A stretch of DNA of 37,437 nucleotides, from IMG/VR virus record IMGVR_UViG_3300025849_000092, positions 1 to 37,437 of that record; one strand, given 5' to 3'. The notes under the pieces were generated by a model. It did not search any database. It saw only the letters and a list, made by a program, of their open reading frames with translations, and was not told where the DNA came from. Source of the stretch: a virus. Below, in pieces: positions 5,298 to 33,906 of this stretch; position 1 is the stretch's first letter; every line of letters begins with the position of its first letter. Position numbers and translations under genes: made by a program.

Positions 5298-6557
5298 ATG
5301 AAACAAAACGGCTCAATGAAAGAACAAATGGAAGGCATTGCGATTGCTATTACCCCTGTCAAAATTAAAAAAGAAAAAAGAAAAAAGAAAGCTAAAGGTG
5401 GTAAAGCAAATAAAGGTATTGAAGCATTAAGAAAAGAAGCTCCAGAAGTTGTAGCTCGAATGGGCTATGGATTAGGAGGACTTGCTAGTAAATTAGCTAA
5501 AACTCTTTTTAAAACAGGTAAAGGTAAAGAAGTTAAAATTAAAAAATTAACTCAAAAAGAACTAGAAGCCGATTTAAAAAGTTTAGAACGTGAACAAAAC
5601 AGGTTAATGGCTTTAGAACAATCTTCTCCTGAAGGATTAAAAGGGCCTGAATTAGATTTTTCATATGAAGTTGATGATTTAGCGGAAGATACATTAAGAA
5701 GATTACAAAGAGATTATCCTGAAAGTAAAACACTTAAAGATTATTTAAAAAATGAAGACAGTGCATTAGAAAGTTCTTATCAAAATAGTTATGAAAAAAG
5801 TGCAGAAAAAGCTTTTCTAAATGAACCCTATGATTATATGGGAACTAAAGATCCAACTCCTTCTTTTTTTGATAAAGACGAAGCTACTATAAATAGAATT
5901 GAAAAACGAAAAGGTTGGAGAAAAAAATCAAACGAGGAATTAAGCGAAGAACGTCTTAAACAAGCAGAACAAGATGCTGAAGAAGGTTTTAATTATAGAG
6001 AACCCGATGATAACGTACCTTTTGCAGAAGGTGGAGATGTAGATGCTCAAATGGCTATGATGATGCCAATGGAAGAATCAATGCCTGCTGAAGCAGAACC
6101 AGATATGATTCCTGACGAGCAAATGGAAGATGAATACTTAGACTTCATAATCTCACAGTCTTTATCTTCTGAAGAAGAAATGGAATTAATGAATAAATTA
6201 GAAGCTGATCCAGAGTTAAGCGTAATGTTTGACAAGCTTATGGATACAGCTACAGAATTTTCAGGCTCTGGCCCAGTTGATGGCCCAGGATCTGAAGTCT
6301 CCGATTCGATACCCGCAAGGTTGTCGGATGGTGAGTTTGTCTTTACAGCAAAAGCTACAGAGCAATTAGGCGCGGATAGATTACAAAGTATGATGGAAGA
6401 TGCCGAGGCTGAAGCAGATGCTACAAGACAACAAAGCGCAGAAGGTGGTGAAATAGAAGAAACTAAAGTTGATAGATTTGGAAAGCCTGTTGATGAAGAC
6501 ATAGCTGAAGATGAAATCAAAAAAGGAATGATGTCTGTTAATCCACGTATGCAATAA
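5298..6557 (+). CDS. Post-portal virion-associated protein with RxxhxxGG motifs
   Basis: A 419-residue protein between portal and scaffold. The N-terminus is Lys-rich; RMGYGLGG (54-61) is followed by LASKLAKTL. A long charged helical middle leads to NVPFAEGG (239-246), a Met/Glu-rich stretch (MMMPMEESMPAE), an acidic helical domain, then GPGSEVSDSIPARLSDGEFV with FTAKATEQLG, and RQQSAEGG (377-384) near the end. The DSIPARLSDGEFV signature occurs, to my knowledge, in uncharacterised marine-phage structural or ejection proteins. Assigned as virion-associated from position; the function is unknown. An AAAGAGA element lies upstream of the ATG. Confidence 0.75.
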   Translation: MKQNGSMKEQMEGIAIAITPVKIKKEKRKKKAKGGKANKGIEALRKEAPEVVARMGYGLGGLASKLAKTLFKTGKGKEVKIKKLTQKELEADLKSLEREQNRLMALEQSSPEGLKGPELDFSYEVDDLAEDTLRRLQRDYPESKTLKDYLKNEDSALESSYQNSYEKSAEKAFLNEPYDYMGTKDPTPSFFDKDEATINRIEKRKGWRKKSNEELSEERLKQAEQDAEEGFNYREPDDNVPFAEGGDVDAQMAMMMPMEESMPAEAEPDMIPDEQMEDEYLDFIISQSLSSEEEMELMNKLEADPELSVMFDKLMDTATEFSGSGPVDGPGSEVSDSIPARLSDGEFVFTAKATEQLGADRLQSMMEDAEAEADATRQQSAEGGEIEETKVDRFGKPVDEDIAEDEIKKGMMSVNPRMQ

Positions 6558-11789: not shown

Positions 11790-14700
11790 ATGGCTCAAAC
11801 ATATACTAGACAAAGTTCGATAGCTGATGGGGATACTATCACCGCTGCGTTGTTCAATAACGAATATAATCAACTCTTAAATGCGTTTGCTTACAGCTCA
11901 AGCAGTGCTTCATCTACAGGACACAGACACGATGGCTCTACTGCACAAGGTGGTAATATTCATACTATTGGTGATTTAGATTTTTTAAATAAAATAGTTG
12001 TAGACAGTACTAACAATCGTTGGGGAGTCTTTGTAGAAGTATCTAGTGCAGCCGTAGAACAAGTAAGAATCTCTGATGGTGTAGTATCTCCTGTTACAGA
12101 CAGTGACGTTGATCTTGGTACAAGCTCGTTATATTTTAAAAATGCTTACATAGATGCTATTACTACTACAGGTAACGTAGCTGTAGGTGGTAATTTAACT
12201 GTTACAGGTACTACGACATTTAACGGTGGTACACTGACTCTTGGTGATTCTGCTGCAGACAACGTAGTCTTTGGTGCAGATGTTGACTCTAATATTATAC
12301 CTGACGATGATGGTGCGTATGATCTAGGTAGCTCTTCACAGGAATGGAGAGATATATACATAGACGGTACAGCACACATTGATACGCTAGACGTAGATGT
12401 AAACGCTACCGTTGCAGGTACACTTGGAGTAACTGGCATAGCTACTTTTACTGATGATATTATTATTGGTGATGGTAAAACTATCGGTTCTGCTTCAGAT
12501 GTTGACGCTATAACAATAGCAGCTAATGGTCAGCTTACACTTACACAAACACTTATTGGTACAGCGTTAGACATTAGCGGTGACATTGATGTAGATGGTA
12601 CAACTAATCTAGATGTAGTCGATATTGACGGAGCTGTAGATATGGCTAGTACGCTTGCGGTTGCAGGAGTATTAACAGGAGCTTCTTTAGATATTTCAGG
12701 TGACATTGATATTGATGGTACATCTAACCTTGACATTGTAGACATAGATGGAGCTGTAGATATGGCTACGACACTTGCAGTCGCAGGTAACGTAGACTTT
12801 AACGGTGATTTAGATGTTGACGGCACTACAAACCTAGACGTAGTAGACATAGATGGTGCTGTAGATATGGCCTCAACCCTGGCGGTTGCAGGTGTTTTAA
12901 CAGGCGCATCTCTAGATATTAGTGGTGATATAGACATAGACGGTACGTCAAACTTAGACATAGTTGATATTGATGGTGCAGTTGATATGGCTACTACACT
13001 TACAGTTGGTGGTGAAATAACAGCAGCTAGTTTAGATATATCAGGCAACGTAGACATTGACGGTACACTTGAAACAGATGCACTATCTTTAAACGGTACA
13101 ACAGTTACAGCTACTGCAGCAGACATAAATTTAATAGACGGCATAACTAACGGAACAGTTATAGCAAGTAAAGCAATCGTTACAGATGCTAACATAGACA
13201 TAACTGGTGGTAGAAATATTACTATTAGTGGTGAGTTAGATGCTGCAACCTTAGACATATCAGGTGATGCAGACATAGACGGTACTTTAGAAGCCGATGC
13301 AATTACTGTAAATGGTACAGCTTTGGCAAGTGTTATTGCAGGAACTACAGTAACTAACGCTACAACTGCTGCAGTGGCTACAACAGTTACTATTACAGAT
13401 AACGAAAGCACTAACGAAAACAACGCTATTGTCTTTACAGCAGGTGGAGACTTAGACGGTGGTAACTTAGGTTTAGAATCAGATGGTGATTTAAAATACA
13501 ATCCAAGTACAGGTACTCTTTCTGCAACTAATATTTCAGTTAGTGGTACACTTAGTACTGTAGACTCAGTTACTATGAGTGCTAACAACGCTGTTGTATT
13601 TGAAGGTGCTACTGCTGATGCACACGAAACTACACTTACTATTGTAGATGCTACTGCTGATAGAACAATTACTTTACCTAACGTATCAGGTACAGTTCCT
13701 GTATTAGCTGCAGCAAGTAATACTCAGGTTACTTCTACTCCTGAAGAGCTTAATGCCTTAGACGGCATCACAGCCGTAGTAGGAGAGCTTAATGCTCTAG
13801 ACATAGGTAGTACAGCAATAGGTACGGCAGTAGCTTCTAAAGCTGTTATATTGGACTCTAACAAAGATTATACAGGTATTAGAAACTTAACTATTACAGG
13901 TGAACTAGACGGTGCAACTCTAGATATTTCAGGAGATGCTGATATAGATGGTACTACTAACCTAGATGTCGTAGATATTGATGGTGCTGTAGATATGGCT
14001 TCTACATTAACATTAGCGGGTAATGCTGATTTTAATGGTGATCTTGATGTTGATGGAACTACAAATCTTGATGTTGTTGATATAGATGGAGCTGTTGATA
14101 TGGCAAGCACATTAGCTGTTTCAGGATTACTTACTGCTAATGCAAACATCACTTTGGCTGGCACAACCCCAACACTAACAATAGGTGATGCTGGTGCAGA
14201 AGATACTAAAATCGTTTTTGATGGCAATGCGCAAGATTATTACATAGGTCTTGATGATTCTGCTGATAAAATGGTCATCGGTGTTGGTTCGACAGTTGGT
14301 ACAAATCCAACTATTACATTTGATGAATCACAAAATTTCGTAATAGCTGGAACTATGAACTTGTTAGGGTTTACAGGTTCTAAAGCAAACTTCACAAATA
14401 GTATGCTTATCAGCAACGATGCTGGCACAGGTACTTTAAGTACAGCAAACAACAATACAGGTTTCGGTCATCAAGTATTTAATGTTTTAACAACAGGCGA
14501 TGGTAATACTGGTGTTGGTGCAGATGTTTTATCAGCAAACACTTCTGGGGCAAATAACACAGGTGTTGGCTTAGATGTTTTAAAAGCAAACACCACAGGT
14601 ACACTTAACGTAGCAGTAGGTTCAAATGCATTAGATGCAAATACTACTGGTAATTTTAACGCTACACTTGGATATAACACTTTAGGTTCAAATACAACAG

Positions 14701-16370
14701 GGGACGCAAACGTAGCGATTGGATATAGCGCTTTAAGTTCAAACACCACCGCTAACAACAACGTAGCTATTGGTAATGACTCTATGGGTGCTAATACTAC
14801 AGGTACTTCTAATGTTGCTGTTGGGCAAGGCTCGTTAGCAGCTAACACCACAGCTTCTAACAACACAGCCGTTGGTGTATCTGCTTTAACAGCAAACACC
14901 ACTGGTGATTATAATACAGCAATTGGTCAACTGTCTTTAACTACTAACACTACTGGACGCTTTAACGTGGCTTCAGGTGTTGATGCTCTCAGAAGAAACA
15001 CTACTGGTTCATTCAACACAGCAACAGGATACACAGCTTTAGAGGATAACACCACAGCAGATAGTAACACAGCTTATGGCGCTTATGCTTTAGGAGCAAA
15101 CACCACGGGTACTGAAAACGTAGCAGTTGGTGCCAATGCCTTAGACGCTAATACAACAGCAAGTTATAACACCGCAGTTGGTCGAGATGCTTTAGGAGCA
15201 AACACGACAGGTAACACTAATACAGCAGTTGGAAGAGTGGCTTTATTATCAAACACCACAGGTGCATCTAACACAGCAGTTGGTCAAGGTGCTTTAGAAT
15301 CAAACACCACAGGAACATTAAACGTAGCAGTTGGTGCCAATGCCTTAGACGCAAACACCACAGGAATAACAAATGTAGCTATTGGTAATGTTGCTTTAGG
15401 AGCGAATACTACTGCAAATAATAATACTGCGGTGGGTTATAATTCTTTAGCAGTAAACACCACAGGACACGAAAATACTGCCGTTGGTACTGTTTCTTTA
15501 GACGCTAATACAACTGGGGATTTAAATACAGCCTTAGGCTATGGTGCTTTATCAGCAAACACTACAGCAGATGAGAACACAGCAGTTGGTTATCACGCTT
15601 TAGTAGCAAACACCACAGGTACAAGAAACGTGTGCGTGGGTGCTAATGCAATGCTTTCAAACTTAACTGGTGGTAGTAACACAGCATTGGGTTGGGGAGC
15701 TTTACAAGTCAACACAGTATCTAACAATACCGCGCTAGGCACTAAGGCTTTATTTAATAACTCCACAGGTACACAGAACACGGCAGTAGGTAGTTTGTGT
15801 GGAGACAATATTACTACTGGTGACCTTAATACAATGATTGGCTACAATGTTGGCAATAGTGCTGTTGATGTAGACCAAGAAATAGTAATTGGCAGCAATA
15901 TTAATGGAGGAGGAACTAACACAGTCAGAATAGGTACATCTGCTGGTAATGCTACTTTATCATTAGATGGTTCAGATACTTCTTGGGCAGCTGCTTCTGA
16001 TTTAAGACTAAAAAAAGATATAGCAGATTCAACAGTTGGTCTTAGTTTTATTAAAGCTTTAAGACCTGTTACTTTTAAATGGAACGCTAAAAATGCTATT
16101 GCTAATAGCTTACCTCAGTATGATGCAGATTCTTCTGATCCAGTATACGGATCAGGTAAAGCTCATCACGGTTTTATAGCTCAAGAAGTTAAAACAGTTA
16201 TTGATGCACATTCAGATGTAGCAAACGGACATAACCTTTGGAATACTGATTTAGATGGAACACAACAAGTTGCACAAGGAGCATTAGTACCTATCCTAGT
16301 CAAAGCCATCCAAGAACAAAACACATTAATTGAAGCATTAACCGCACGAATTACAACCTTAGAAGGATAA
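11790..16370 (+). CDS. Large tail fibre with two repeat arrays and S74 chaperone domain
   Basis: A 1526-residue receptor-binding fibre candidate. The N-terminal ~200 residues (DGDTITAALFNNEYNQLLNA; RHDGSTAQGGNIHTIGDLDF) look like a virion-attachment region. Residues ~260-780 contain repeated DGTTNLDVVDIDGAVDMAST-type beta units. Residues ~899-1356 are about 27 copies of a 17-residue unit, consensus ANTTGxxNxAxGxxAL, suggestive of a trimeric beta-roll as in YadA-type heads. The C-terminus has SDLRLKKDI (S1403) and GFIAQEVK, the signature of the intramolecular chaperone (Peptidase_S74), which trims itself off after trimerisation. The N-terminal DLRLKKD placement predicts release of ~124 residues. 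Host-range function is inferred. Confidence 0.9.
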   Translation: MAQTYTRQSSIADGDTITAALFNNEYNQLLNAFAYSSSSASSTGHRHDGSTAQGGNIHTIGDLDFLNKIVVDSTNNRWGVFVEVSSAAVEQVRISDGVVSPVTDSDVDLGTSSLYFKNAYIDAITTTGNVAVGGNLTVTGTTTFNGGTLTLGDSAADNVVFGADVDSNIIPDDDGAYDLGSSSQEWRDIYIDGTAHIDTLDVDVNATVAGTLGVTGIATFTDDIIIGDGKTIGSASDVDAITIAANGQLTLTQTLIGTALDISGDIDVDGTTNLDVVDIDGAVDMASTLAVAGVLTGASLDISGDIDIDGTSNLDIVDIDGAVDMATTLAVAGNVDFNGDLDVDGTTNLDVVDIDGAVDMASTLAVAGVLTGASLDISGDIDIDGTSNLDIVDIDGAVDMATTLTVGGEITAASLDISGNVDIDGTLETDALSLNGTTVTATAADINLIDGITNGTVIASKAIVTDANIDITGGRNITISGELDAATLDISGDADIDGTLEADAITVNGTALASVIAGTTVTNATTAAVATTVTITDNESTNENNAIVFTAGGDLDGGNLGLESDGDLKYNPSTGTLSATNISVSGTLSTVDSVTMSANNAVVFEGATADAHETTLTIVDATADRTITLPNVSGTVPVLAAASNTQVTSTPEELNALDGITAVVGELNALDIGSTAIGTAVASKAVILDSNKDYTGIRNLTITGELDGATLDISGDADIDGTTNLDVVDIDGAVDMASTLTLAGNADFNGDLDVDGTTNLDVVDIDGAVDMASTLAVSGLLTANANITLAGTTPTLTIGDAGAEDTKIVFDGNAQDYYIGLDDSADKMVIGVGSTVGTNPTITFDESQNFVIAGTMNLLGFTGSKANFTNSMLISNDAGTGTLSTANNNTGFGHQVFNVLTTGDGNTGVGADVLSANTSGANNTGVGLDVLKANTTGTLNVAVGSNALDANTTGNFNATLGYNTLGSNTTGDANVAIGYSALSSNTTANNNVAIGNDSMGANTTGTSNVAVGQGSLAANTTASNNTAVGVSALTANTTGDYNTAIGQLSLTTNTTGRFNVASGVDALRRNTTGSFNTATGYTALEDNTTADSNTAYGAYALGANTTGTENVAVGANALDANTTASYNTAVGRDALGANTTGNTNTAVGRVALLSNTTGASNTAVGQGALESNTTGTLNVAVGANALDANTTGITNVAIGNVALGANTTANNNTAVGYNSLAVNTTGHENTAVGTVSLDANTTGDLNTALGYGALSANTTADENTAVGYHALVANTTGTRNVCVGANAMLSNLTGGSNTALGWGALQVNTVSNNTALGTKALFNNSTGTQNTAVGSLCGDNITTGDLNTMIGYNVGNSAVDVDQEIVIGSNINGGGTNTVRIGTSAGNATLSLDGSDTSWAAASDLRLKKDIADSTVGLSFIKALRPVTFKWNAKNAIANSLPQYDADSSDPVYGSGKAHHGFIAQEVKTVIDAHSDVANGHNLWNTDLDGTQQVAQGALVPILVKAIQEQNTLIEALTARITTLEG
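12591..12953 (+). repeat. Protein-identical fibre repeat, recoded at DNA level
   Basis: Two 46-codon segments, 12591-12728 and 12816-12953, encode exactly the same residues but differ synonymously at 29 of 46 codons by my count. Related DGTxNLDxVDIDGAVDMA units continue at 12691-12780, 12916-13010 and 13920-14115. Confidence 0.85.
14484..15857 (+). repeat. 51-bp tandem repeat array (about 27 units) in fibre gene
   Basis: The array encodes 17-residue units with consensus ANTTGxxNxAxGxxAL. One unit near the end is 16 residues long. Some units share long identical DNA: a 32-base block at 15117-15148 recurs at 15321-15352, exactly four units (204 bases) away, which points to recent duplication or recombination. 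Confidence 0.9.
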
Positions 16371-16949: not shown

Positions 16950-19310
16950 ATGGCGCGTAAAAGATATAAGACTAAAAGGATGGACTATCGCAAAGGTGGT
17001 CGAGTTCAGTATGCTGTAGGCGGCAGAGGCCCTAAAGAAATAAAAGGTAATAGAAGTAAACCTAAACGTGGAAACTACGATTCAAAAGACGAATATCAAA
17101 TAGCACTACAGCAATATAGAGATTCTAAGTCTACAACAACCGCTCCTGCAGTAACTCCGCCAGCAAGAGTAGGCGCTCCAGTTACAAGACCAGCAGGTAA
17201 AGCTGCGTCAACAGTAGATGCAATAACAAAAGAAGTTGAAGCTAGAAAAAGTGGAACATCTTCTGCTTCAGCTACAAGACCAAGCCCATCTATAGTTTCT
17301 GAAGAGCCTGATCTTAGTAGTGGTAGAACAGATGGTCAAATAGCACAAAGTGAATCTCCTAGAGGCGCACCTTTAAAAGGCCCTGGATCTACTAATACTC
17401 CAGGAACAAACATAGAAGCTGTTGCTAAATCTACTGCAGAAACTAATGCTGTAAATACTGCTGAAGCAGAAAAAGCTGCTGCTACAGCAAAAGATAAAGT
17501 TACATTAGCTAAAGAAGCTACAGCAAAAGCAGGTGTAATACCTGATGCTAAAAAAGTAGATGAAACTATTGTAGACACAGCAACTACTATTGATGAAGGA
17601 ACAAAAGCAGTAGCAGGAGTAGCAGGCCCAGTAACAATAGATCCTACAGTTACAGGTACATCTACAAGAGCAGGAACACAAGCACCTATAACTGCAGCTA
17701 CAGTAGATCCTACATTAATAGGTGAAGGAGCTAAAGTTGAAGCTGTTACAGGAACAGTAAGTGATGAAGCGTTAGCTAAAGCTGCTCAAGTAGAAGATAC
17801 TCCTTTAATAGAAGGAGCAGATGTAGAAATTAAAGAAGGAGCTTTAGCTGAAAGAGTAGTAGGTACAGTAAGCCCTGAAGCTATGGCTACAGCAGCTCAA
17901 GCTGCAGGTACTACATTATCTAGAGTTACTAGAGCTAAAAAACAATTACGTAATGCAGGAATATCTGAAGCAGCTATAGAAGAATTAGGTAACGATCCTG
18001 AAGCTCTTGAAGATCGTTTAATGAGTTTAACTGAAGCAGAACGCGGTATGATTGGTGATCTTCCAGAAGAAGCATTAGTATCTAATCAACTCGATAGTCT
18101 TTTAAAAGGTATGGAAAATGGAGAGATACCTACGTGGGCAGGCCCAGCAGTAAGTGCTGTAGAACAAATGTTAGCTCAACGTGGTTTGTCAGCTTCTACT
18201 GTAGGTAGAGATAATTTATTTAATGCTATTATACAATCAGCAGTTCCTCTTGCTCAATCTAACGCACAGGCTATACAGGCTAGTGTAGCTCAATCAAGAG
18301 ATATAGAAGCTAGAGAAGAATTAGCTAACGCACAGATGCGTCAACAAACAGCTTTGCAAAACGCAGGTAATGTATTTCAGATGGATATGGCACAGTTTAG
18401 TGCAGACCAACAAACAGCTTTATCTAACAGTAAATTTATGCAAACAGTAAGTTTAACTGAAGCTTCTAATAATCAACAGGCAGCAATACAAAATGCAGTT
18501 ATAGCTACACAAGTTAATATGCAAAATGCTACTTTATTACAACAAGCCCGAAGTCAAAACGCAAAATCTTTTTTAGCTATGGATATGGCTAATCTTAGTA
18601 ACAAACAACAGGCAGCAGTAGTAACAGCACAATTTCAAAATCAAGTATTACTATCAGATCAAGCTGCTTCTAACGCAGCAAAACAATTTAACTCTGCTAG
18701 TGAAAATCAAACTAATCAATTTATGGCTTCACTTGCACAACAAGTAGAATTAAGTAATGCGGATAGGGCAGACAGAATGACTATAAGTAATAATGCAGCA
18801 ATTAATGCTAGGGCCGCAGCTCAAGCAGGTATTGAAGCTGACTTAGCTAAAACAAATGCTGCACTTGAAACAGACATAAATAAAACAAATGCAGAATTAG
18901 AATATAGACGAGATGCTTTTAATGCTACAAACTCTGCAGCCGTTAAAGCCTCTAACGTAGCTTGGAGAAGAAACGCTAACACTATTAATACTGCAGCAGC
19001 TAATACTATAGCTATGCAGAATACAATGAACGCTTTTAATCTAGGAACTGCAGAGTTAGCTTACTTATGGCAAGAAGCTAGAGACACAGCCTCACACGTT
19101 TATCAAAGTAAAGAAAGAGGTTTAGATCGAGATAACGCTGTTAAACTTCAAATTCTTGTAAATGATGCTAATGCGGCAGTTAATGCTGCAGGTAATCAAA
19201 ATACAAACAGAAGAGATTTTTATGGTAGAATTTTAGATATTTTTAAACCTAAAGGTGGTAGCGGCAGTGGTAGCGGTAGCCCAACAGTTAAGAGTACTGT
19301 TATACCTTAA
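16950..19310 (+). CDS. Internal virion protein, Ala/Gln-rich, 786 aa
   Basis: A 786-residue protein that begins with two back-to-back octapeptides, RMDYRKGG (10-17) and RVQYAVGG (18-25). Then come a low-complexity, likely disordered Thr/Ala/Val region (to ~330), an acidic helical segment, and a long Ala/Gln/Asn-rich helical region (~430-750) with heptad-like character. It closes with KPKGGSGSGSGSPTVKSTVIP, a flexible Gly-Ser tail. Helical, Ala-rich internal proteins in this position correspond to podovirus ejection proteins (T7 gp14-16 region). It has an AGGAA ribosome site. The exact counterpart is unclear. Confidence 0.75.
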   Translation: MARKRYKTKRMDYRKGGRVQYAVGGRGPKEIKGNRSKPKRGNYDSKDEYQIALQQYRDSKSTTTAPAVTPPARVGAPVTRPAGKAASTVDAITKEVEARKSGTSSASATRPSPSIVSEEPDLSSGRTDGQIAQSESPRGAPLKGPGSTNTPGTNIEAVAKSTAETNAVNTAEAEKAAATAKDKVTLAKEATAKAGVIPDAKKVDETIVDTATTIDEGTKAVAGVAGPVTIDPTVTGTSTRAGTQAPITAATVDPTLIGEGAKVEAVTGTVSDEALAKAAQVEDTPLIEGADVEIKEGALAERVVGTVSPEAMATAAQAAGTTLSRVTRAKKQLRNAGISEAAIEELGNDPEALEDRLMSLTEAERGMIGDLPEEALVSNQLDSLLKGMENGEIPTWAGPAVSAVEQMLAQRGLSASTVGRDNLFNAIIQSAVPLAQSNAQAIQASVAQSRDIEAREELANAQMRQQTALQNAGNVFQMDMAQFSADQQTALSNSKFMQTVSLTEASNNQQAAIQNAVIATQVNMQNATLLQQARSQNAKSFLAMDMANLSNKQQAAVVTAQFQNQVLLSDQAASNAAKQFNSASENQTNQFMASLAQQVELSNADRADRMTISNNAAINARAAAQAGIEADLAKTNAALETDINKTNAELEYRRDAFNATNSAAVKASNVAWRRNANTINTAAANTIAMQNTMNAFNLGTAELAYLWQEARDTASHVYQSKERGLDRDNAVKLQILVNDANAAVNAAGNQNTNRRDFYGRILDIFKPKGGSGSGSGSPTVKSTVIP

Positions 19311-23046: not shown

Positions 23047-26000
23047 ATGGCCAGCCCTCTTCAACTTGAAACTCCTGAAGAAAAAAGACGCAGGATAGAA
23101 CAAGGAAAATTACAAGAACAAATGGGAAATATAGGCTTTGAGTCTGTAGATATTCCTGTGCCTGCAGAAACTACAAAGCTTTCTGCAGAAACTACAGAGC
23201 TTCCTGCAGAAACTACAAAGCCTATAGAAACTACAAAGCCTATAGAAACTACAAAGCCTATACAACTTTCAAAATTTATTAATATTCCAGAAGATAAAGA
23301 AGATATAGATTTTAATAATGAAGAATTAGAAATTATGGCTTCTTTAAATAACAAAGAATTAACTCCTGTACCAGAAGGAGGTTTAATACAATCTAAAAAT
23401 ACTTATTGGAATAATTCTGAAAAAGAATATATAGAAGAGGGTATGGATGACGAAACTCGTTTTCAACTAAATAGAATTAACAGAGTATTAAATAATTCAC
23501 AAAAAGAAACAGAAACAACTTATTCGTATACAGATTTAAAAGAAGGAAGAGGCCCTAAAAATTCTGATGGAGAAGATTTTCCTACTGTAGCGGAAAGATG
23601 GTTAAGAGAAGAAGGAGAAAGTGAAGATATTGCTGAAACATTAAGAGACTCTAGTTGGTCTTTAGGAGATACTTTTGCGTTAGGTTTTGATTCTAAAAAT
23701 TGGTCAACACAACATAAAAAAGATTATGCTTATTTACGACCTACTTTTGAGAACGCTGAAATAAGAGAACCAAGAGAACAATTAGAAGCTTTTAAAGATA
23801 TATTTATAGATATATTTGTAGATCCTGCTAATTGGGTAGCTGCTTATCTTACTATTAAATCAGGAGGCCTAGCTGCTGTGTCTATAAATACGGCAGCTCG
23901 TTTAGCAACCAGTCAAGCTCTTAAACAGGGTTTAACTAAAGTAGCTCAAAACGGAACTGTTAGAGCAGTAAGTATAGGTATGACAGAGGGAGCTATAGAT
24001 GCTGGTGGTATTAATTACGGTACACAATTAGCAAATGTAAATATAGGAACACAAGAAGAAATAGATCCAGAGGAAGTTAAAACAGCACTTAAAATTGGAA
24101 CAGCAGCAGGTGGAATATTTGGTGGAACAATTTATAAAGCAGCTAATTATTATTTAAGAAGAAAAACACAAAAAATAATAGATGATATTGAAATAGAAAA
24201 TGATATAGGCCCTCCTACTGAAGAAAAATTTCAAGAACTTAAACGCGCTCAGATACTTTTAGATAAAATAATGTCTAATACATCAGGAAAATCTACTGCT
24301 CGATTTATAGAAGTAGCTAAACAAAGCCCAGGTTTAAAACAATTTTTATTAAATTTTGCTCCTAAAGCTTTACAACGTATTTTTAGTAAAGAAGCTAGAA
24401 CAGAAGTTATTGATAAACCTTTACGTTCTACAGATGAAGCAGGCGATACAGGATATGCTAATGATTCAGAAGCTTCCAGTGCTGCTTACACTACTTTTAT
24501 TAATGAAAGTTTACAAACAATACAAGATACTTTTAAAAGAGTTAGAGATACAGACGGAAGTTGGTTTAATCTTAGAGTTAGATTAACAGAAAACGATAAT
24601 AAATCTTTAGCTTATTTATTAACTAAAGGAAATCTTTTAGACGATTATATTATAGTAACCCCTAAAGATCCTAATAAACCTTTTGTAAATTTAAATATTA
24701 AAAAAAGCAATAATAAAATATCTGCAGAGATAGAAGCATTACAAGAAAAATATGGTTTAGAGTTTACAGAAGAAATGTACGAAGGCGCTGCTAAAATAAG
24801 ATATTTTTTTAAACAAATACAAGAAGACGCTAACAATGTTATGCAAATTCAACCTGATGGTACAAAAGTATTAAGACCTTTATTAAAAGAAGATCAACAA
24901 ATACCTAATTATTTTCACAGAGTATTAAATTACGCAGCTATTACAGCAACTCCAGAGTCTTTAGAAATCTTTAGACAAATGTTAGTACGTTCAGGACACG
25001 CAGATCCTATTGATGTTAAACCAAAAAGAAAAGTTACTCTTGATAGTGAAGTACCTCCTAGAACAGGTACAGGAGGAGCTGAAAGAAAAGGACAACCTGA
25101 TTATGATAAAGCTCCTGAATATGAAGGTACGGATGTTGCTGATGAAACAATAGATAAAGAGTATTTTAAAAAATTAGATTCTCCTTATATTAAAGGAGAA
25201 ACAATATTACAAAGACACGATAGTTTTTTAGACTTGGCTAAATATGTTATTAAACAAGAAAATAATGCTTTAGACGCTACTGACGAAACTCTTAGAAGGT
25301 TAGGCTATGACGATGCTGCTGTTTTGCAAAAAGCTAAAGAATTAAAAGCAGATGCGTTGTTAGCAGATTTACATAATAAAAAATACTTGCCTAAAACTGC
25401 AACAGATTCTTCAGGAGGAAAATCTGAATTTTTAAGAGAAAGAGTTTGGAGTAAATTAAACGATGAAGAACTTATAGCTAACGGTTTTGTTAATATAAAT
25501 ATGTTACCGTTATTGTCTGATTATGCTCAAGCAATGGGACGTAAAATAAATGAACAAAAATATTTTGGTTTAGGTGACAATTTTGAAAGAGTTTATATAA
25601 AACCTATAAGAGATGAATTATTAGATAGCGGCAAATTTTCAGAAGATGAAGTAATAGAAATCCTAGACGGTTTACGTTCTCTTAAAAAATCTGTTGTAGG
25701 AGATCCTTCTGCACATATGCAATTAAATTCTAAAGTTAAAACAGGTATTGATTTTGTTAGGACAACACAAACTATGGCGCACCTTACAGGAGCTACTCTT
25801 TCTAGTATTACAGAACCTTTTATTATATTAAGTAGATCAGATATAACAGATACACCAGCAGGTGTAAAAGCATTTAAAAATGCATTAGGATTACAAATTA
25901 AAAAAAATTGGGGGAAAAACGGCAGACTTTGGGAACAAATGAAGTTAGCTACAGGCAGAGAAATAAATAGTTTTAAAGATCTTACAGATCCTGAATTTTT

Positions 26001-29000
26001 AGAAGTACAACGAGTAGGCATAGCTGTTGAAAATGCTATGATAGATAGAGTTGACGGTATGTTTTCTGAAAATATTCAAAATACAACTTTAAAAAATATT
26101 AATACTATGTTTTTTAATTCTATTTTATTATCTCAATGGACACAAGGTGTGCAAATGGGTGCTTTTAATTATGCTAAAGAAAGAACTACAAGAATTACAG
26201 CAGAACTAGCAAGCGGAAAAACTAAGTGGGGAAATATAAAACTTACTAAAACTGCTATTCAAAGAAGAAGAGAACAATTACACGAAATAGGTATTGATGC
26301 TAACGATGCTGTAAATACTTATAATGCTTCTTTTGTTGCAGGTAAATTTAATGTAAAACAATGGCAAGATTCTGCGTTTTTTGATACTCAAGTAATACCT
26401 GGCGCACAAAGTTTTTCAAAAGAAATAATTTTAAATCCTTCTGCATCTAATGCTAATAAACCTTTATGGTTTGGAAATCCTGTTTCTCAAGTATTAATAC
26501 AATTTGCAAACTATCCTATTGTTTTTAATAATACTGTTCTTAAACAAATGGCTAGAGATACAATTCGTTATCCTGCTGCTAATGCTCCTAGAACAGCAGC
26601 AGCTATGACGATGATGACAGGCGTTGCAATGATTGGAAATAATATAAGAAGCCGTGGAGAAAGCGGAAATAAACCTATTGAACAACAGGTAATAGATGGC
26701 TTTGATAGAACAGGTTTAAGTGGCCCTGCGTCATATCTTTATAGAGGATATAAAGGTGCAACATTAGGAGGAGGAGGCTTTGTTCCTGTAATAACTAAAA
26801 TGTTTGGAGGCCCTTTTGTTTCTGATATTGCTGACGGTATTGCTTATAATACAGATCCTATTACTTGGTTAAGTCAAAATACACCAGGATATTCTTTAAT
26901 GTCTCCTGATTCTAGAAGAGCTTTAAATACGTTTACTAAAAGATATTGGGCTAGTAAAACTGGAGATACTCCAGATATTGTACGAAAAATAAAAAGTAAA
27001 GGTGGTGTAGTAGAAGATGTATTAAATGTTATTTCAGAACCTGATGAACGTAAAGTAAGAGGACAACCTAATACTTATAGTGGAATGGCAGGTGTGTTAT
27101 TTCAAGACGAAGAAGAGCGAGGAGCTTTTGCAAAAGGCGGTAAAGTTTCTATAACAGATACTGATGAAATGTACGGTTATCTTACTAAAGATGAAGATGA
27201 ATACAATGTTATTTTAGATAAAAATCCTATCAGTATTTATTCAAAAGAAACTCTTCCTGATCTAGACATTAAAGAAACATACTACACAGGCTTTAAAGGC
27301 AATACAGTTTCTAACAGACTAAATAGCGTAAGACAATCTACTACCATAGGGCTTCCTGTAACTACAAATAAAAATAAAGCAAGAGGTGCAGTACGCGTAG
27401 CAGGTAAAATTAAATTTAGAAATGTGTTAAAATTAAATATAGATACAGCTACACCTGATGCAGTACAGGCAGAGCTTAATAAAAATATAGATAGTTTAAT
27501 TAAGATTGAAGATAAAATATTAGGTAAAGAGATTATTAAAGCCGCTAACGATAACTTAGCAATAAGAGATGATGTCCTTAATAACGATCCTGATCGAACA
27601 CCTGAGAAAGAAGCTGTTATTGCTAAGAGCAAAAGTTTCTTGGTAAGACATCAGTTACTTAAACTAGGCTATGATGCTATAGAGACTAAAGAGGGCTATA
27701 CATTACTTAGAGAAAATCAATTCTTACCTACAGAGATTATGGAAAGAACTAAAGCCTATGGTGGCGGTATGGCTTCTGCGTTAAATAGAAGACAACAATA
27801 CAACGAAGGTGGAGAGTCTCTTACATTAGAACAAAAACAAAAAAGATATGATCTTAATAAAAAATATTTAGAAGAAATACATAACTACTCTGTGGCTAAT
27901 AAAGCTACAGGTTTAGATAATGAAGGAAAAACAATTAGTATGGCTACCTCTTCTCTTGGAACAGCTGCTGATAAACATTATATAATTAATAAATGGAATC
28001 CTTATACTAAAAAATTAGAAGATGATTCTTTTGTTTTAAAAAGAATAGAATCTTTAGTTAAAGAAGGTAAATTGCTTCCTTATTCTACTCCTAAAGAAGC
28101 TGAAGAAGACAGAGCAAAAATAAGAAATGAAATATTAAATAGAAGACAACAGTTAGGTTTTGGTGGTCTTGCTTCTAAGTTAGCACAAAGATTATCTAGA
28201 AAAGTAATGCCAGCTCCTCAACGATTTTTAGATAAAGAAGATAAAGCATATAAACCTTTTTTAAAAGACTTTGAGTTTACAGAAGGAGGAAGATATATAG
28301 AAATGGATCAAAAAGGCCCAAAAGATATAACAGGAGAATATCCTAAACAAGCCAACATTTCTGTAGACTCTGAAGGTAAAGCTTCTTTAAGTATATCTAA
28401 AGAAATTTTTACAGAACCTCCAGAAACTTCTGGTAAAATTATTAGAACAAATTTATTTAAAAAGAAAGCAGGATGGAAATGGCTTGTAACTCCAAAAGGT
28501 TTTGATCCTAATCCTCAAGGAAATTTTCCTATAGTTTCAGTAGAAACCGGGAACAAACATTATTATTCTTTATCTACAGATTTTCCTAAAGGAGTAGAAT
28601 TAAGTCGTTATGCTAAAAAAACAAGCGAGCCTAGATTACGACCAACAACAAAAGGAGATTTAAAGTTTGGAGATATTATAGGTAAAATTTCTGTTAGAGG
28701 AAAAGAACATCCTGTTTATAATAATCTTACTGTAGAATCTTTGTTAGATAATAAACAACAGTTTAATAAAGGTGGATTAGTTAGAAAAATAATACTGGAA
28801 GAAAGAGAACAGTATGTTTTTGGTGGTCTTACTAAATTATTTACTAAAATGGCACAAAGACAAATAAAAAAATCAAGACAAGCTGTTAAAAATAATCCAA
28901 CAGCAAGTACAAATAGTGCTTTAGAGTTAGATGAAAAATTAAATAATTTATTTCGTAAGTTTGGAGATCAAGAATATATTGATGAAGGTATGCCTTCTTT

Positions 29001-29295
29001 AGAAAATTTAAAACAAGATAATCAAGCAGGTTTTTATTTTAGTAAAACTAATTCAGGAAATTATAGATTATCTGAAATTGAATATGATGAATTTAATAAT
29101 CCTAAAAAACTTAAACATACAATATATAAAATAAATAAAAATTTAGCTAATGAAAAAGATGTTAATAAAGAAGTAGTTAGATTAGGTTTAGATGTAGGAG
29201 AAAAATTAGGATATATACCACAAGAAATTTTTCCTGAAAATATGCTTTATGATTATGTTCCTAAAGAACTACACAAAATATATGGATTAGAATGA
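23047..29295 (+). CDS. Giant internal/ejection protein, 2082 aa, modular C-terminus
   Basis: The largest protein here, in the T7 gp16 position. Residues 40-72 are ETTKxx repeats. Residues ~255-380 are Ala/Gly-rich and hydrophobic (ANWVAAYLTIKSGGLAAVSI; TALKIGTAAGGIFGGTIYKA), suggesting membrane interaction. Residues ~400-1330 are helical. From ~1358, octapeptides of type R-x-x-h-x-x-G-G (RGAFAKGG 1358-1365, RQQYNEGG 1582-1589, RQQLGFGG 1700-1707, KQQFNKGG 1903-1910, REQYVFGG 1920-1927) separate modules. Module 1 has YYTGFKG (1412-1418) and GYDAIETKEGYTLL (from 1541), reminiscent of ADP-ribosyltransferase-like phage domains. Module 2 resembles the small GK-x-IPT-type domain of phage internal proteins. 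A role in DNA ejection is inferred. Confidence 0.75.
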   Translation: MASPLQLETPEEKRRRIEQGKLQEQMGNIGFESVDIPVPAETTKLSAETTELPAETTKPIETTKPIETTKPIQLSKFINIPEDKEDIDFNNEELEIMASLNNKELTPVPEGGLIQSKNTYWNNSEKEYIEEGMDDETRFQLNRINRVLNNSQKETETTYSYTDLKEGRGPKNSDGEDFPTVAERWLREEGESEDIAETLRDSSWSLGDTFALGFDSKNWSTQHKKDYAYLRPTFENAEIREPREQLEAFKDIFIDIFVDPANWVAAYLTIKSGGLAAVSINTAARLATSQALKQGLTKVAQNGTVRAVSIGMTEGAIDAGGINYGTQLANVNIGTQEEIDPEEVKTALKIGTAAGGIFGGTIYKAANYYLRRKTQKIIDDIEIENDIGPPTEEKFQELKRAQILLDKIMSNTSGKSTARFIEVAKQSPGLKQFLLNFAPKALQRIFSKEARTEVIDKPLRSTDEAGDTGYANDSEASSAAYTTFINESLQTIQDTFKRVRDTDGSWFNLRVRLTENDNKSLAYLLTKGNLLDDYIIVTPKDPNKPFVNLNIKKSNNKISAEIEALQEKYGLEFTEEMYEGAAKIRYFFKQIQEDANNVMQIQPDGTKVLRPLLKEDQQIPNYFHRVLNYAAITATPESLEIFRQMLVRSGHADPIDVKPKRKVTLDSEVPPRTGTGGAERKGQPDYDKAPEYEGTDVADETIDKEYFKKLDSPYIKGETILQRHDSFLDLAKYVIKQENNALDATDETLRRLGYDDAAVLQKAKELKADALLADLHNKKYLPKTATDSSGGKSEFLRERVWSKLNDEELIANGFVNINMLPLLSDYAQAMGRKINEQKYFGLGDNFERVYIKPIRDELLDSGKFSEDEVIEILDGLRSLKKSVVGDPSAHMQLNSKVKTGIDFVRTTQTMAHLTGATLSSITEPFIILSRSDITDTPAGVKAFKNALGLQIKKNWGKNGRLWEQMKLATGREINSFKDLTDPEFLEVQRVGIAVENAMIDRVDGMFSENIQNTTLKNINTMFFNSILLSQWTQGVQMGAFNYAKERTTRITAELASGKTKWGNIKLTKTAIQRRREQLHEIGIDANDAVNTYNASFVAGKFNVKQWQDSAFFDTQVIPGAQSFSKEIILNPSASNANKPLWFGNPVSQVLIQFANYPIVFNNTVLKQMARDTIRYPAANAPRTAAAMTMMTGVAMIGNNIRSRGESGNKPIEQQVIDGFDRTGLSGPASYLYRGYKGATLGGGGFVPVITKMFGGPFVSDIADGIAYNTDPITWLSQNTPGYSLMSPDSRRALNTFTKRYWASKTGDTPDIVRKIKSKGGVVEDVLNVISEPDERKVRGQPNTYSGMAGVLFQDEEERGAFAKGGKVSITDTDEMYGYLTKDEDEYNVILDKNPISIYSKETLPDLDIKETYYTGFKGNTVSNRLNSVRQSTTIGLPVTTNKNKARGAVRVAGKIKFRNVLKLNIDTATPDAVQAELNKNIDSLIKIEDKILGKEIIKAANDNLAIRDDVLNNDPDRTPEKEAVIAKSKSFLVRHQLLKLGYDAIETKEGYTLLRENQFLPTEIMERTKAYGGGMASALNRRQQYNEGGESLTLEQKQKRYDLNKKYLEEIHNYSVANKATGLDNEGKTISMATSSLGTAADKHYIINKWNPYTKKLEDDSFVLKRIESLVKEGKLLPYSTPKEAEEDRAKIRNEILNRRQQLGFGGLASKLAQRLSRKVMPAPQRFLDKEDKAYKPFLKDFEFTEGGRYIEMDQKGPKDITGEYPKQANISVDSEGKASLSISKEIFTEPPETSGKIIRTNLFKKKAGWKWLVTPKGFDPNPQGNFPIVSVETGNKHYYSLSTDFPKGVELSRYAKKTSEPRLRPTTKGDLKFGDIIGKISVRGKEHPVYNNLTVESLLDNKQQFNKGGLVRKIILEEREQYVFGGLTKLFTKMAQRQIKKSRQAVKNNPTASTNSALELDEKLNNLFRKFGDQEYIDEGMPSLENLKQDNQAGFYFSKTNSGNYRLSEIEYDEFNNPKKLKHTIYKINKNLANEKDVNKEVVRLGLDVGEKLGYIPQEIFPENMLYDYVPKELHKIYGLE
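23167..23262 (+). repeat. ETTKxx-coding tandem repeats
   Basis: There are three perfect 18-base units, GAAACTACAAAGCCTATA, at 23209-23226, 23227-23244 and 23245-23262. Two degenerate 21-base versions (23167-23187, 23188-23208) precede them. They encode a Thr/Lys/Glu linker near the N-terminus of the giant ejection protein. Confidence 0.9.
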
Positions 29296-30729: not shown

Positions 30730-30986
30730 TGGATATTGTACAAGTAGTATCAGACTTTGGATTCCCTGTAGTAATGGTCGTAGGACTAGGATACTTTGTA
30801 TACTTTGTATGGCAGACAATCACTAATAAGATTGATCCTGCTGTACAGGAAATGAAAGTAACTATCATAAGACTTACAGATCAGTTACGTTTATTAGATC
30901 AAGATATGATTAGACTTCAGCAGAAAGTAAATACGGTACTAGAACTTAAAGAAGAGAATACAATAAATGAAACTAAAAAAAGATAA
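30729..30986 (+). CDS. Membrane-anchored coiled-coil protein, 85 aa
   Basis: An 85-residue protein starting at a TAATG overlap. A single hydrophobic N-terminal segment (FGFPVVMVVGLGYFVYFVWQ, residues 10-29) is followed by a coil (PAVQEMKVTIIRLTDQLRLL, QDMIRLQQKVNTVLELKEEN). The layout parallels the gene at 30267 and, more loosely, the one at 16702. Its 3' end overlaps the CsgF gene by 20 bases, so it is in one transcript with the curli-like cassette. A role as an inner-membrane partner for lysis or for export is speculative. Confidence 0.7.
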   Translation: MDIVQVVSDFGFPVVMVVGLGYFVYFVWQTITNKIDPAVQEMKVTIIRLTDQLRLLDQDMIRLQQKVNTVLELKEENTINETKKR

Positions 30987-31434
30987 AGAACTTTTAGTTA
31001 TTAGTTGGACGTTACTAATAATTTTTTTTGTGTCTCATATTAAAGCCGATCAATTAATCTACAATTTTAAAAGCCCTAGCTTCTCAGGAATAAATACATC
31101 GAGCCACTACCTTACTATTGAGAACCAAGAAGCTACTCGCAAAGCTACAATTAAAGAAGAGATCAAAGCTTACACAGATCAGTTAGCTAGAGAAGCAGAC
31201 AACACAACGCTTGCTAGGTTTATAAGAAACTTAGAAAGCCGTATCTATGCACAGCTATCGCGACAGATGGTGGAGTCTTTGTTTGGGGAGACACCACAGA
31301 AAGAAGGTAAACTAACACTAGAGGGTAATACAATTGAATACGTTGTTGAAGCAGATACAATTACGCTTACAGTTACAGATGAAACAGGTGGTACAACTAA
31401 TATTACTGTGCCTATTGGTGACTTTACTTTCTAG
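30967..31434 (+). CDS. csgF: CsgF-like curli assembly protein
   Basis: 155 residues against 138 in E. coli CsgF. A Sec-type signal peptide (LLVISWTLLIIFFVSHIKA, ending about residue 27) is followed by LIYNFKSPSFSGINTSSHYL, which aligns with the E. coli mature N-terminus (FQFRNPNFGGNPNNGAFLL), the segment that plugs into the CsgG channel. A helical neck (FIRNLESRIYAQLSRQMVES) and a beta head (KLTLEGNTIEYVVEADTITL...) with TDETGGTTNI match E. coli TDRKTGQTSTI in place. CsgF normally sits extracellularly on the channel and couples secretion to fibre nucleation. It is followed in operon by CsgG, overlapping it by 56 bases. Confidence 0.88.
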   Translation: MKLKKDKELLVISWTLLIIFFVSHIKADQLIYNFKSPSFSGINTSSHYLTIENQEATRKATIKEEIKAYTDQLAREADNTTLARFIRNLESRIYAQLSRQMVESLFGETPQKEGKLTLEGNTIEYVVEADTITLTVTDETGGTTNITVPIGDFTF

Positions 31435-32185
31435 TTGTGCCTCACGTAATATCTTAGAAGGTAGTGGTATACCTAATATAATAATTAAAAGTTCTTCGAT
31501 ACTAGATTTACAATCAGAAGAATTAAAAAATGTACGTCCTGCTAAACGTAAGCCTGTCATAGCTATCTATCCTAATAGCTTTAGAGACCATACAGGCCAA
31601 CGTAAAAGCAACGGACAGTTTGCATTATTTAGTACTGCAATTACCCAAGCCCCGGAAGCTTTTCTTATTAGGGCTTTGAAACACGCAGCAGATGGTAAGT
31701 TCTTTCAAGTTGCAGAACGTGTAGGACTTGATTCACTTACTAAAGAAAGACAATTAATTCGCAGTACACGTGATTCTTTTGAAGAGGACAGTACTGTAAA
31801 ACCTTTATTATTAGCAGGATTGCTTTTACAAGGCGGTGTACTTAGCTATGACTCTAACATAAAATCTGGAGGGCTTGGAGCCAGAGCGTTAGGTCTAGGA
31901 TCAAGCAAAGAGTACCGAGAAGATTTGATTACTATTTCATTAAGACTTGTTTCTGTATCGACAGGAGAAGTATTAATAGAAGTATTGATATCAAAGACAG
32001 TTACTTCAGCAGGTGTTTCTCAGGATCTGTTTAGATTTATATCTGAAGGAACAAAGCTTATAGAAGTAGAAGGAGGAGTTGCAGCAAACGAAAGCAGCGC
32101 TATAGCTCTACAAAAAGCAATAGAAGCAGGTGTATTAGAAATAATAAAAGTAGGAATTACTAGGGGGTATTGGAGATATGAATAA
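31379..32185 (+). CDS. csgG: CsgG-like outer-membrane secretion channel lipoprotein
   Basis: The start chosen is ATG 31379, giving 268 residues (E. coli CsgG has 277); a TTG at 31334 would only add a non-signal-like leader. The signal peptide ends in the lipobox LLSSC, predicting an acylated cysteine. The match to CsgG is strong: YDSNIKSGGLGARALGLGSS against E. coli YESNVKSGGVGARYFGIGAD, LRLVSVSTGEVL against LRVVNVSTGEIL, and the ending VGITRGYW against DGIDRGLW. CsgG forms the nonameric outer-membrane pore for curli subunits. The constriction region differs: NGQFALF precedes STAITQ, so the Phe is kept but the E. coli Tyr and Asn positions are not. Confidence 0.92.
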   Translation: MKQVVQLILLCLLVTLLSSCASRNILEGSGIPNIIIKSSSILDLQSEELKNVRPAKRKPVIAIYPNSFRDHTGQRKSNGQFALFSTAITQAPEAFLIRALKHAADGKFFQVAERVGLDSLTKERQLIRSTRDSFEEDSTVKPLLLAGLLLQGGVLSYDSNIKSGGLGARALGLGSSKEYREDLITISLRLVSVSTGEVLIEVLISKTVTSAGVSQDLFRFISEGTKLIEVEGGVAANESSAIALQKAIEAGVLEIIKVGITRGYWRYE

Positions 32186-32885
32186 ATTAATTAGCTTGTT
32201 GGTGCTTGTTAGCGTTTCCGCGACAGCTTCAGACAACGAGATCTTTGTAGATCAAGTAGGAGCTACAGCTAACATAGATCTTGAGCAATTAGGTAGTGGT
32301 AACATTATAGGTGGTCTTACTGCAGTAGCAGGTTCAATGACTGCATTAGATCTTGATGGAACCTCAATGACATTAGATATAAATCAAATAGGAGATACTA
32401 ACAAGTTCTTAGGGGATATGTACGCAGATACATACACTGGTTACTTTAACTTTGATGGTGACACCAACACGTTTACATCTAAGATGGATCCGACCAATGC
32501 GTTTGGCGCAGATGGTTCTAACGTTAATGTCCAAGTGACAGGCAGTACCAACACCTTCACACTTGATTTAGCTACTGCAGCTTTAGCAAGTGGTGCAGAT
32601 ATAGATTGGACTGTACAGGGTTCTAGTAATACTATTAACGCTGACATTGATGTAGACTCAGCAACTAACTATATGAATATAGATGGTGACAGTAACACAG
32701 TAAACTATGATGGAGATGGTTATGCGCAGGGGTATTTTCACCTTACACACACAGGAAGCTCAAGAGCCTTCGATGTGGATCAGCAAAGCACACAAGATAA
32801 TGACTGGCTTAAAGTTACTTCTACTGGTTCTAACGGTACAGTTTGCATTAACCAAGACGATCAAGGCACAAGCGTTGGATGTTGA
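32178..32885 (+). CDS. Secreted protein with curlin-like repeats
   Basis: 235 residues; the start overlaps the CsgG end by eight bases. A signal peptide (KLISLLVLVSVSATA) precedes an acidic repeat region. Curlin-type units of form x-x-Q/D-x-G-x-x-N recur: VDQVGATANI (24-33), LEQLGSGNII (35-44), INQIGDTNKF (68-77), FDGDTNTF (92-99), VQVTGSTNTF (118-127), TVQGSSNTI (145-153) and NIDGDSNTV (167-175). These are degenerate relative to CsgA, with Asp often replacing Gln. The C-terminus holds two cysteines, VCINQDDQGTSVGC. It is the likely substrate of the adjoining CsgG/F channel. Whether it forms amyloid is inference. Confidence 0.75.
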   Translation: MNKLISLLVLVSVSATASDNEIFVDQVGATANIDLEQLGSGNIIGGLTAVAGSMTALDLDGTSMTLDINQIGDTNKFLGDMYADTYTGYFNFDGDTNTFTSKMDPTNAFGADGSNVNVQVTGSTNTFTLDLATAALASGADIDWTVQGSSNTINADIDVDSATNYMNIDGDSNTVNYDGDGYAQGYFHLTHTGSSRAFDVDQQSTQDNDWLKVTSTGSNGTVCINQDDQGTSVGC

Positions 32886-33906
32886 TATTGGAAACATTAC
32901 ACAGTTAAACGGAAACACCAGAGTAGTAAGAGATAAACCTTATGAGAGCGAGATTGATTTCTCGCTTAACTCTATGGACAAACTAGAAACTGCGCAAGGC
33001 AGAATGGGTGTTACGTTTAGAGATGATACAACCATACGTCTAACAGAACACAGCAACGTAACTATAGATAAGTTTGTGTTTGATCCTGATCCAGCTAAAT
33101 CTACAATGGCTTTGTCGTTTGTGAAAGGTACTGGCAGGTTCATAAGTTCTAAAACTAAAAGACGTATACCTAAAGATAATATTACTATCCGTACCAATGC
33201 GGCCACCATTGGAATTCGCGGCACAGATTTCACGCTGACTGTTAAAGAAACTGGAGAAACTTTAGTGATCCTACTCCCTGATGAGTTTGGTAACTCTAGT
33301 GGTGAGATAACTGTAGACACAGCACTAGGACAGGTAGTCCTTACCAAAGCCTATGAAGCTACTACAGTATACAACTTTGAAACTCCTCCTACTCCTTCAG
33401 TTATACTAGACCTGACACTAGATATGATTGACAATATGCTCATTGTAAATCCTCCAGAGACTAAAGAGATTCAAACAGACGAATCAGTTGCTGCTGTAGA
33501 TAATCTATTAGACGTAGACTTCTTAGAGTTTGACGAGCTAGAACAGGATGATTTAGCTGAAGATGATTTAGAATATACAGAGCTAGACATAGACTACCTA
33601 GCAGGTAACTTCCTTGAAGATCTACTTGATGTAATTCAGGAAGTCGATGAATTAGGTAAAGCAAACAAAGCCCTATCTGCAGATGGAGTTAAAGGTACAG
33701 CAGTAGGTTATGATGGAGATACTCAGATCAGTACCTTTGTTACAGATACTAATTTAAAGTTCTTAAGGTCTATAGAAGATACACTAGAGATGAACGTATC
33801 TAAAGATGGTTCATACAGTATAACTATTGAACAAGAAGGTAAAGTAAATAGAGTCACTACTAACGGAGGAAGCTCTTCTGTTATCAATATTAAACAAGGA
33901 AGTTAA
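32800..33906 (+). CDS. FecR-domain exported protein ending in curlin-type repeats
   Basis: The start chosen is ATG 32800 (368 residues), which opens a clean signal peptide: GLKLLLLVLTVQFAL, then a cleavage site after KAQA; the longer frame to 32707 lacks one. Residues ~30-190 form a FecR-type beta domain (GRMGVTFRDDTTIRLTEHSN, IRTNAATIGIRGTDFTL, ITVDTALGQVVL). A very acidic middle follows (FLEFDELEQDDLAEDDLEYT). The last ~30 residues read SITIEQEGKVNRV then SSVINIKQGS, fitting the curlin S-x5-Q-x-G-x-x-N unit. It may anchor or nucleate the curlin-like protein, CsgB-fashion, by inference. The 5' end overlaps the upstream gene by 86 bases. Confidence 0.8.
   Translation: MTGLKLLLLVLTVQFALTKTIKAQALDVDIGNITQLNGNTRVVRDKPYESEIDFSLNSMDKLETAQGRMGVTFRDDTTIRLTEHSNVTIDKFVFDPDPAKSTMALSFVKGTGRFISSKTKRRIPKDNITIRTNAATIGIRGTDFTLTVKETGETLVILLPDEFGNSSGEITVDTALGQVVLTKAYEATTVYNFETPPTPSVILDLTLDMIDNMLIVNPPETKEIQTDESVAAVDNLLDVDFLEFDELEQDDLAEDDLEYTELDIDYLAGNFLEDLLDVIQEVDELGKANKALSADGVKGTAVGYDGDTQISTFVTDTNLKFLRSIEDTLEMNVSKDGSYSITIEQEGKVNRVTTNGGSSSVINIKQGS

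Follow-up and report, generated by a model that had tools for sequence, protein, structure and literature searches.

The C-terminal third of a giant protein from an ocean phage is probably a variable array of cargo modules on a conserved virion protein that is itself likely to be ejected; we infer both this ejection and the effector function of the four modules, A to D, that the array holds here. The protein (2082 aa) is encoded by the final large late gene (23047..29295, + strand) of a 37.4 kb virus contig from IMG/VR, which is called the window below. Its layout would be that of a body, a short adaptor and then repeats of a unit made of an eight-residue box, R-x-x-hydrophobic-x-x-G-G (RxxΦxxGG), and a module, and the features on which this reading rests are as follows.

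23047..27036, + strand: body of the giant protein, residues 1-1330, a probable ejection/internal virion protein
27037..27117, + strand: adaptor EPDERKVRGQPNTYSGMAGVLFQDEEE, residues 1331-1357, directly before box 1
27118..27141, + strand: box 1, RGAFAKGG, residue 1358
27142..27744, + strand: module A, residues 1366-1566, unclassified
27745..27813, + strand: A/B double joint, box 2 RTKAYGGG, then MASALNR, then box 3 RQQYNEGG
27814..28143, + strand: module B, residues 1590-1699, unclassified
28144..28167, + strand: box 4, RQQLGFGG, then LASKLAQRL
28168..28752, + strand: module C, residues 1708-1902, predicted undescribed all-β domain
28753..28827, + strand: C/D double joint, KQQFNKGG (28753-28776), a short spacer and REQYVFGG (28804-28827)
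28828..29292, + strand: module D, residues 1928-2082, unclassified
5457..5480, + strand: box RMGYGLGG, then LASKLAKT, in a 419-aa protein (5298..6557)

The window belongs to a phage whose large terminase is ~65% identical to those of the pelagiphages HTVC103P, HTVC104P and HTVC115P and whose gene order is that of HMO-2011-type phages, and the giant ORF lies in a late, structural gene context, as polyvalent proteins do. The relatives used for comparison (loci designated by L-numbers) were gathered through the modules, notably module C, and through the downstream curli-type gene, so that the sample is non-random, and some of the fetched loci overlap one another. Two genes for curli secretion, csgF (PF10614) and csgG (PF03783), lie at 30967-32185 and have close relatives in hundreds of viral contigs; adjoining them, a FecR-like domain protein is encoded at 32707-33906, in an ORF that overlaps the preceding one. 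Upstream, at 11790-16370, lies the gene of a tail spike-like protein (1526 aa) that has a bactofilin-type domain and, at its C-terminus, an S74 endosialidase chaperone.

Five strict RxxΦxxGG boxes occur in the giant protein, at residues 1358, 1567, 1582, 1700 and 1920, together with a variant that starts with K (KQQFNKGG, residue 1903). As shuffled versions of the protein hold 0.18 strict boxes on average and none of 20,000 reached five, an origin by chance or composition is ruled out. A census of 811 non-redundant proteins from the fetched marine phage loci found 54 boxes where 7.3 were expected in the giant family and the proteins that share its modules, and 7 where 0.2 were expected in proteins that have a tape-measure-type DIPA..GEFV domain. 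The other 745 proteins together had 22, with 20.2 expected. Acidic residues are favoured before the R and L-[VA]-S-K-x-L after the GG, and the R at -6 is specific. A general C-terminal enrichment of the looser ΦxxGG was also considered and set aside, as it is modest (1.7 vs ~1 per 1000 aa) and not above that of the interiors of long proteins. No account of a GG motif in internal virion proteins turned up in a search of the literature. Boxes are also seen away from arrays: two in tandem (RMDYRKGG RVQYAVGG, 16977-17024) fall within the first 30 residues of an unclassified 786-aa late protein (16950..19310), and a 320-aa slot protein of L095 (L095:10625-11587) has five boxes with no cargo modules between them.

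The first-pass annotation had correctly given the region as 27118-29295, the first box, RGAFAKGG, starting exactly at 27118 and the ORF ending at 29295, and had divided it into four segments at the octapeptide. The segments do meet at boxes, but the A/B and C/D joints each hold two of these, only a few residues apart at C/D. Each of the four segments is found without its neighbours, or beside others, in related phages, where modules are gained, lost and swapped at the boxes and where some relatives carry no cargo, as a check of their presence and absence, suggested at the outset, makes clear.

With | denoting a box joint, the window reads body|A|B|C|D, and L005 reads body|A|G|methyltransferase-like. 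On contig 3300038825_001481, of which L009 and L006 are adjacent pieces that were read separately with ~10 unread bases between them, the order is A-lysozyme-like|B|F|D, F being a module with an HExxH motif; here F takes the place of C between a B that is 92-95% identical to that of the window and a D that is 99% identical. Further arrangements are A-lysozyme-like|E (L083), body|A'|...|ART|... (L109, where ART stands for ADP-ribosyltransferase), body|lysozyme-like| (L153) and body|A|...|transglycosylase-like (L124), while L123 ends in |F|, again with HExxH (peptidase-like). The cultured phage HTVC104P follows the same pattern in its gp54, body|methyltransferase|T4-lysozyme-like (the last identified by eye), and its methyltransferase module is 38% identical to that of L005. 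Close relatives thus keep body and joints and differ in their modules, which include lysozyme-like, HExxH peptidase-like, methyltransferase-like and ART-PolyVal domains, and distinct domains of a single polypeptide are combined differently from one relative to the next. Homology breakpoints within the cargo region lie within 10 aa of a box in 31 of 81 cases, against 7.9±2.6 under the null and with 0 of 20,000 draws as high, in a test biased to sequences whose similarity suffices for BLAST. Many other breakpoints lie well away from any box, and joints without a box exist: in L083 and L009, A passes directly into a lysozyme-like module. Module G of L005 (residues 1498-1947, L005:4488-5864) is large, has hydrophobic stretches and a Tat-like string, RRDFNKGVGATA, and matched no family.

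The DNA of the joints bears on how these exchanges may have come about. The B/C joint of the window, the G/methyltransferase joint of L005 and the lysozyme/E joint of L083 have identical codons at 13-14 of their 13-15 shared residues, although the modules that flank them are non-homologous; the DNA of the box 4 joint accordingly recurs before the methyltransferase-like module in L005 and before module E in L083. Likewise, the GGMASALNRRQQY part of the A/B double joint also joins F to D in L006, with near-identical codons. In L123 the same 21 bases, GGTGGTTTAGTAAATAGATTA, stand on both flanks of module F, and the stretch is also present in L116, whose gene ends directly after its box. Because codons are identical where the flanking modules differ, such joint identity points, as read from sequence, to recombination through a common joint. 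The 419-aa protein, whose gene lies between the portal and capsid genes and which has a C-terminal tape-measure-type DSIPARLSDGEFV domain, presents the opposite case: it shares GLGGLASKLA with a joint of the giant protein, yet uses the same codon at only 3 of 11 shared residues, with a TCT/AGT serine switch among the differences. Since here the same peptide is written in different codons in another virion gene, the codon divergence is, on the same kind of reading, the mark of selection on the box peptide.

The array appears to be attached to its carrier by the adaptor, which has the consensus EPxxRxxxxTGxPYxxxAGxxxxDEEER and stands ahead of the first box in many giants that bear cargo. In cargo-less giants (e.g., L104, L113, L114 and L106) it is found within the last ~45 residues, so that these homologues end at the putative attachment point. 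Its profile also matches giants with unrelated bodies, those of L013/L024 and of the window family being unrelatable by HHalign. Because the adaptor is common to unrelated bodies and terminal in giants without cargo, it appears to mark the site of cargo attachment, and the cargo array appears to be an optional appendix on differing carrier proteins. The body of the window protein is related to those of HTVC104P gp54 and HTVC115P gp40 (HHalign 97.8%, E 9e-13), and its residues 800-1211 match PHROG 7348/6958, labelled endolysin and virion structural protein. Homology to T7 gp16 was not detectable (HHalign 0.3%), and a body of the T7 gp16 type is ruled out by sequence.

None of modules A-D matches a known effector family or the described set of polyvalent domains. 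Module A, with homologues in L005, L124, L134, L137 and L109 and partial ones in L083 and L009, had been described as ART-like in the first-pass annotation. The peptides cited for this, YYTGFKG (1412-1418), GLPVTTNKNKARGA and GYDAIETKEGYTLL, are present, and the assignment itself found no support: Pfam gave no family at E up to 5, a PDB profile search gave no match, and HHalign against an ART alignment from sister phages gave a probability of 0.6% (3% for the best single sequence). The AlphaFold model is poor (pLDDT 52), and Foldseek with this low-confidence model returned nothing. At the positions of the catalytic H-Y-[D/E] (or R-S-E) residues of ARTs, matched by eye, the module A family is not conserved (T/I/V, P/D, variable). 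With every search negative or uninformative, module A as a demonstrable ART was rejected. It is also unlikely to be a remote, catalytically dead domain of the ART fold, even though its layout (strand, GLPVT, GYDxI...YxLL..NQFLPTEI) looks like ART-PolyVal by eye, its tail aligns locally with the ART of L013 (HHalign E 0.015) and real ARTs occur in this protein of sister phages, L109 having an ART-PolyVal domain above cut-off (PF18760); the HHalign and PDB results, the low-confidence model and the unconserved H/Y/D-E positions all weigh against it. Of the proposal that the protein is injected and carries effector cargo, the box-separated, cargo-like modules therefore stand, backed by their swaps, gains and losses and by the cargo-less homologues, whereas the ART identity does not.

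Module B recurs 92-95% identical in L009 between other neighbours and matched no Pfam or PHROG family; its suggested resemblance to a small accessory domain of phage internal proteins went unconfirmed, with no match among described families. Module D, preceded by F instead of C in L006, where it is 99% identical, matched no Pfam or other family either. Module C is found in ~75 other marine viral contigs and in gp55 of Roseobacter phage CRP-13; none of 20 members matched a Pfam family, and a pattern-seeded scan of 84,980 species genomes of cellular organisms gave no relative. It is, by structure prediction, an undescribed, confidently folded all-β domain (mean pLDDT 85.7, pTM 0.81), modelled as compact and separate, in line with the initial view of distinct modules instead of one continuous domain. 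The sole Foldseek match was a 1208-aa viral protein, a length that fits CRP-13 gp55, and no solved structure proved similar; the top PDB matches were ARTs at the level of noise (E 0.11, TM 0.24), and an ART identity was rejected for C as well. In L038-L046 (e.g., residues 1611-1797 of ORF 5810 in the L041 locus) the halves of module C are reversed, C2 before C1, possibly a circular permutation, and in L041 and L043 an ART-like domain, identified through its motif and the ART profile, comes after the reversed module.

Several known systems resemble this arrangement in part. Polyvalent proteins are large, multidomain phage proteins encoded in late-gene context and proposed to be co-injected with the DNA, and they combine ART, metallopeptidase, methyltransferase and lysozyme domains (Iyer et al., 2017, PMC5512222). 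The giant proteins share with them the multidomain build and the late context, and ART-PolyVal (PF18760) is found in the sister protein of L109. Described polyvalent domains were recognised in the relatives (PF18760 in L109, HExxH in L006 and L123, and methyltransferase- and lysozyme-like modules) but not in A-D of the window. Unlike polyvalent proteins as described, the modules of the window are separated by boxes, sit on a conserved body and adaptor, are exchanged at the boxes and fall outside the described families; the text of PMC5512222 has no mention of 'linker', 'glycine' or 'shuffl'. The Dar proteins of P1, whose delivery with the DNA was shown experimentally, and the internal proteins and Alt of T4 are likewise virion-internal, co-delivered with DNA and equipped with short peptide signals, and are processed proteolytically during assembly (PMC9024508, PMC12810830), but they are separate genes with one N-terminal signal each, whereas the window has many modules per polypeptide and a repeated internal box. 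In the T7 gp14-16 family, too, short-tailed phages have large late proteins that swap domains, a lysozyme domain having moved between gp15 and gp16 among these mosaic podovirus ejection proteins (PMC8954989); the giant protein differs from that family in lacking detectable gp16 homology and in having a whole variable C-terminal array joined by a repeated motif. Polymorphic toxins (PMC3482391) also have a constant N-terminal carrier, variable C-terminal modules and recombination at a conserved junction, but the array of the window consists of several tandem modules and is encoded by a virus. Tail tape measure proteins with F(A)xGGYV...SDSIPAxLSxGEFV share the ΦxxGG element, and the 419-aa protein of the window has a tape-measure domain, yet the strict box was found in 0 of 4 readable tape-measure stretches and the cargo array is absent from them.

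Modelled on polyvalent proteins (PMC5512222) and on the delivery of P1 Dar (PMC9024508, PMC12810830), the giant protein would be a carrier with a replaceable tool set, packaged, leaving the virion with the DNA and bringing modules that would act in the newly infected cell. As DNA, the boxes would be short shared sequences through which recombination swaps, adds and deletes modules; as peptides, they would be recognised by some factor, given that the same peptide is kept with different codons in another virion gene. It is possible, if short of probable, that the box is a processing site, cut after the GG to separate the modules, which we favour over docking or a passive hinge. This step is the less secure because none of the late proteins scanned was recognisable as a protease (the record being a fragment) and because boxes a few residues from a C-terminus, or in the module-poor 419-aa protein, suit a cleavage site less well. 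Those same terminal boxes, followed by a conserved tail (GGLVNRL...), would fit an uncut docking or packaging peptide that anchors the giant protein, modules included, to the portal, the core or the inside of the capsid, like the capsid-targeting sequences of T4 and P1. Boxes near the N-termini of other late proteins, the five in the L095 protein and the packaging of P1 DarB through an N-terminal 30-residue signal (PMC9024508) point the same way; since a single tether per protein would be enough, yet boxes stand at most module joints, and a GG core in a variable context is what cleavable or flexible sites typically have, we regard docking as rather unlikely.

That the box is a mere flexible inter-domain linker, spread by recombination and unrecognised in trans, would agree with the flexibility of Gly-Gly and with the joint DNA common to different modules, but is improbable given the specific R at -6, the same peptide in other codons in an unrelated gene and terminal boxes that connect nothing. 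Least expected is a giant protein that is a structural or tape-measure-like virion component with modules for assembly or wall penetration instead of host manipulation; the PHROG labels of the body, the lysozyme-like modules of several relatives and the tape-measure-type domain of the other box-bearing protein suggest it, but it is hard to see a structural role for ART-PolyVal and methyltransferase-like modules, and the array is highly variable and dispensable. Our broader proposal, which we put forward tentatively, is that RxxΦxxGG may be an undescribed virion signal of abundant marine phages, whose box-flanked modules would plug in behind the adaptor on unrelated ejection proteins, enter the host and owe their release or docking to a single shared factor.

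The giant protein is best filed as a new variant among polyvalent proteins, in phages related to the HMO-2011-type pelagiphages and including the cultured isolates HTVC104P and HTVC115P. Although polyvalent proteins have been described as injected and multidomain, no rule is known for how their domains are linked and traded; in the present protein, a short motif that can be recognised forms the joint, and its signature in DNA and peptide is clear. If our reading is true, the box would allow module boundaries to be read off, would help to find new families of early-infection effectors such as module C, and would make it possible to test directly whether injected phage proteins are packaged, or cut, through a short peptide.
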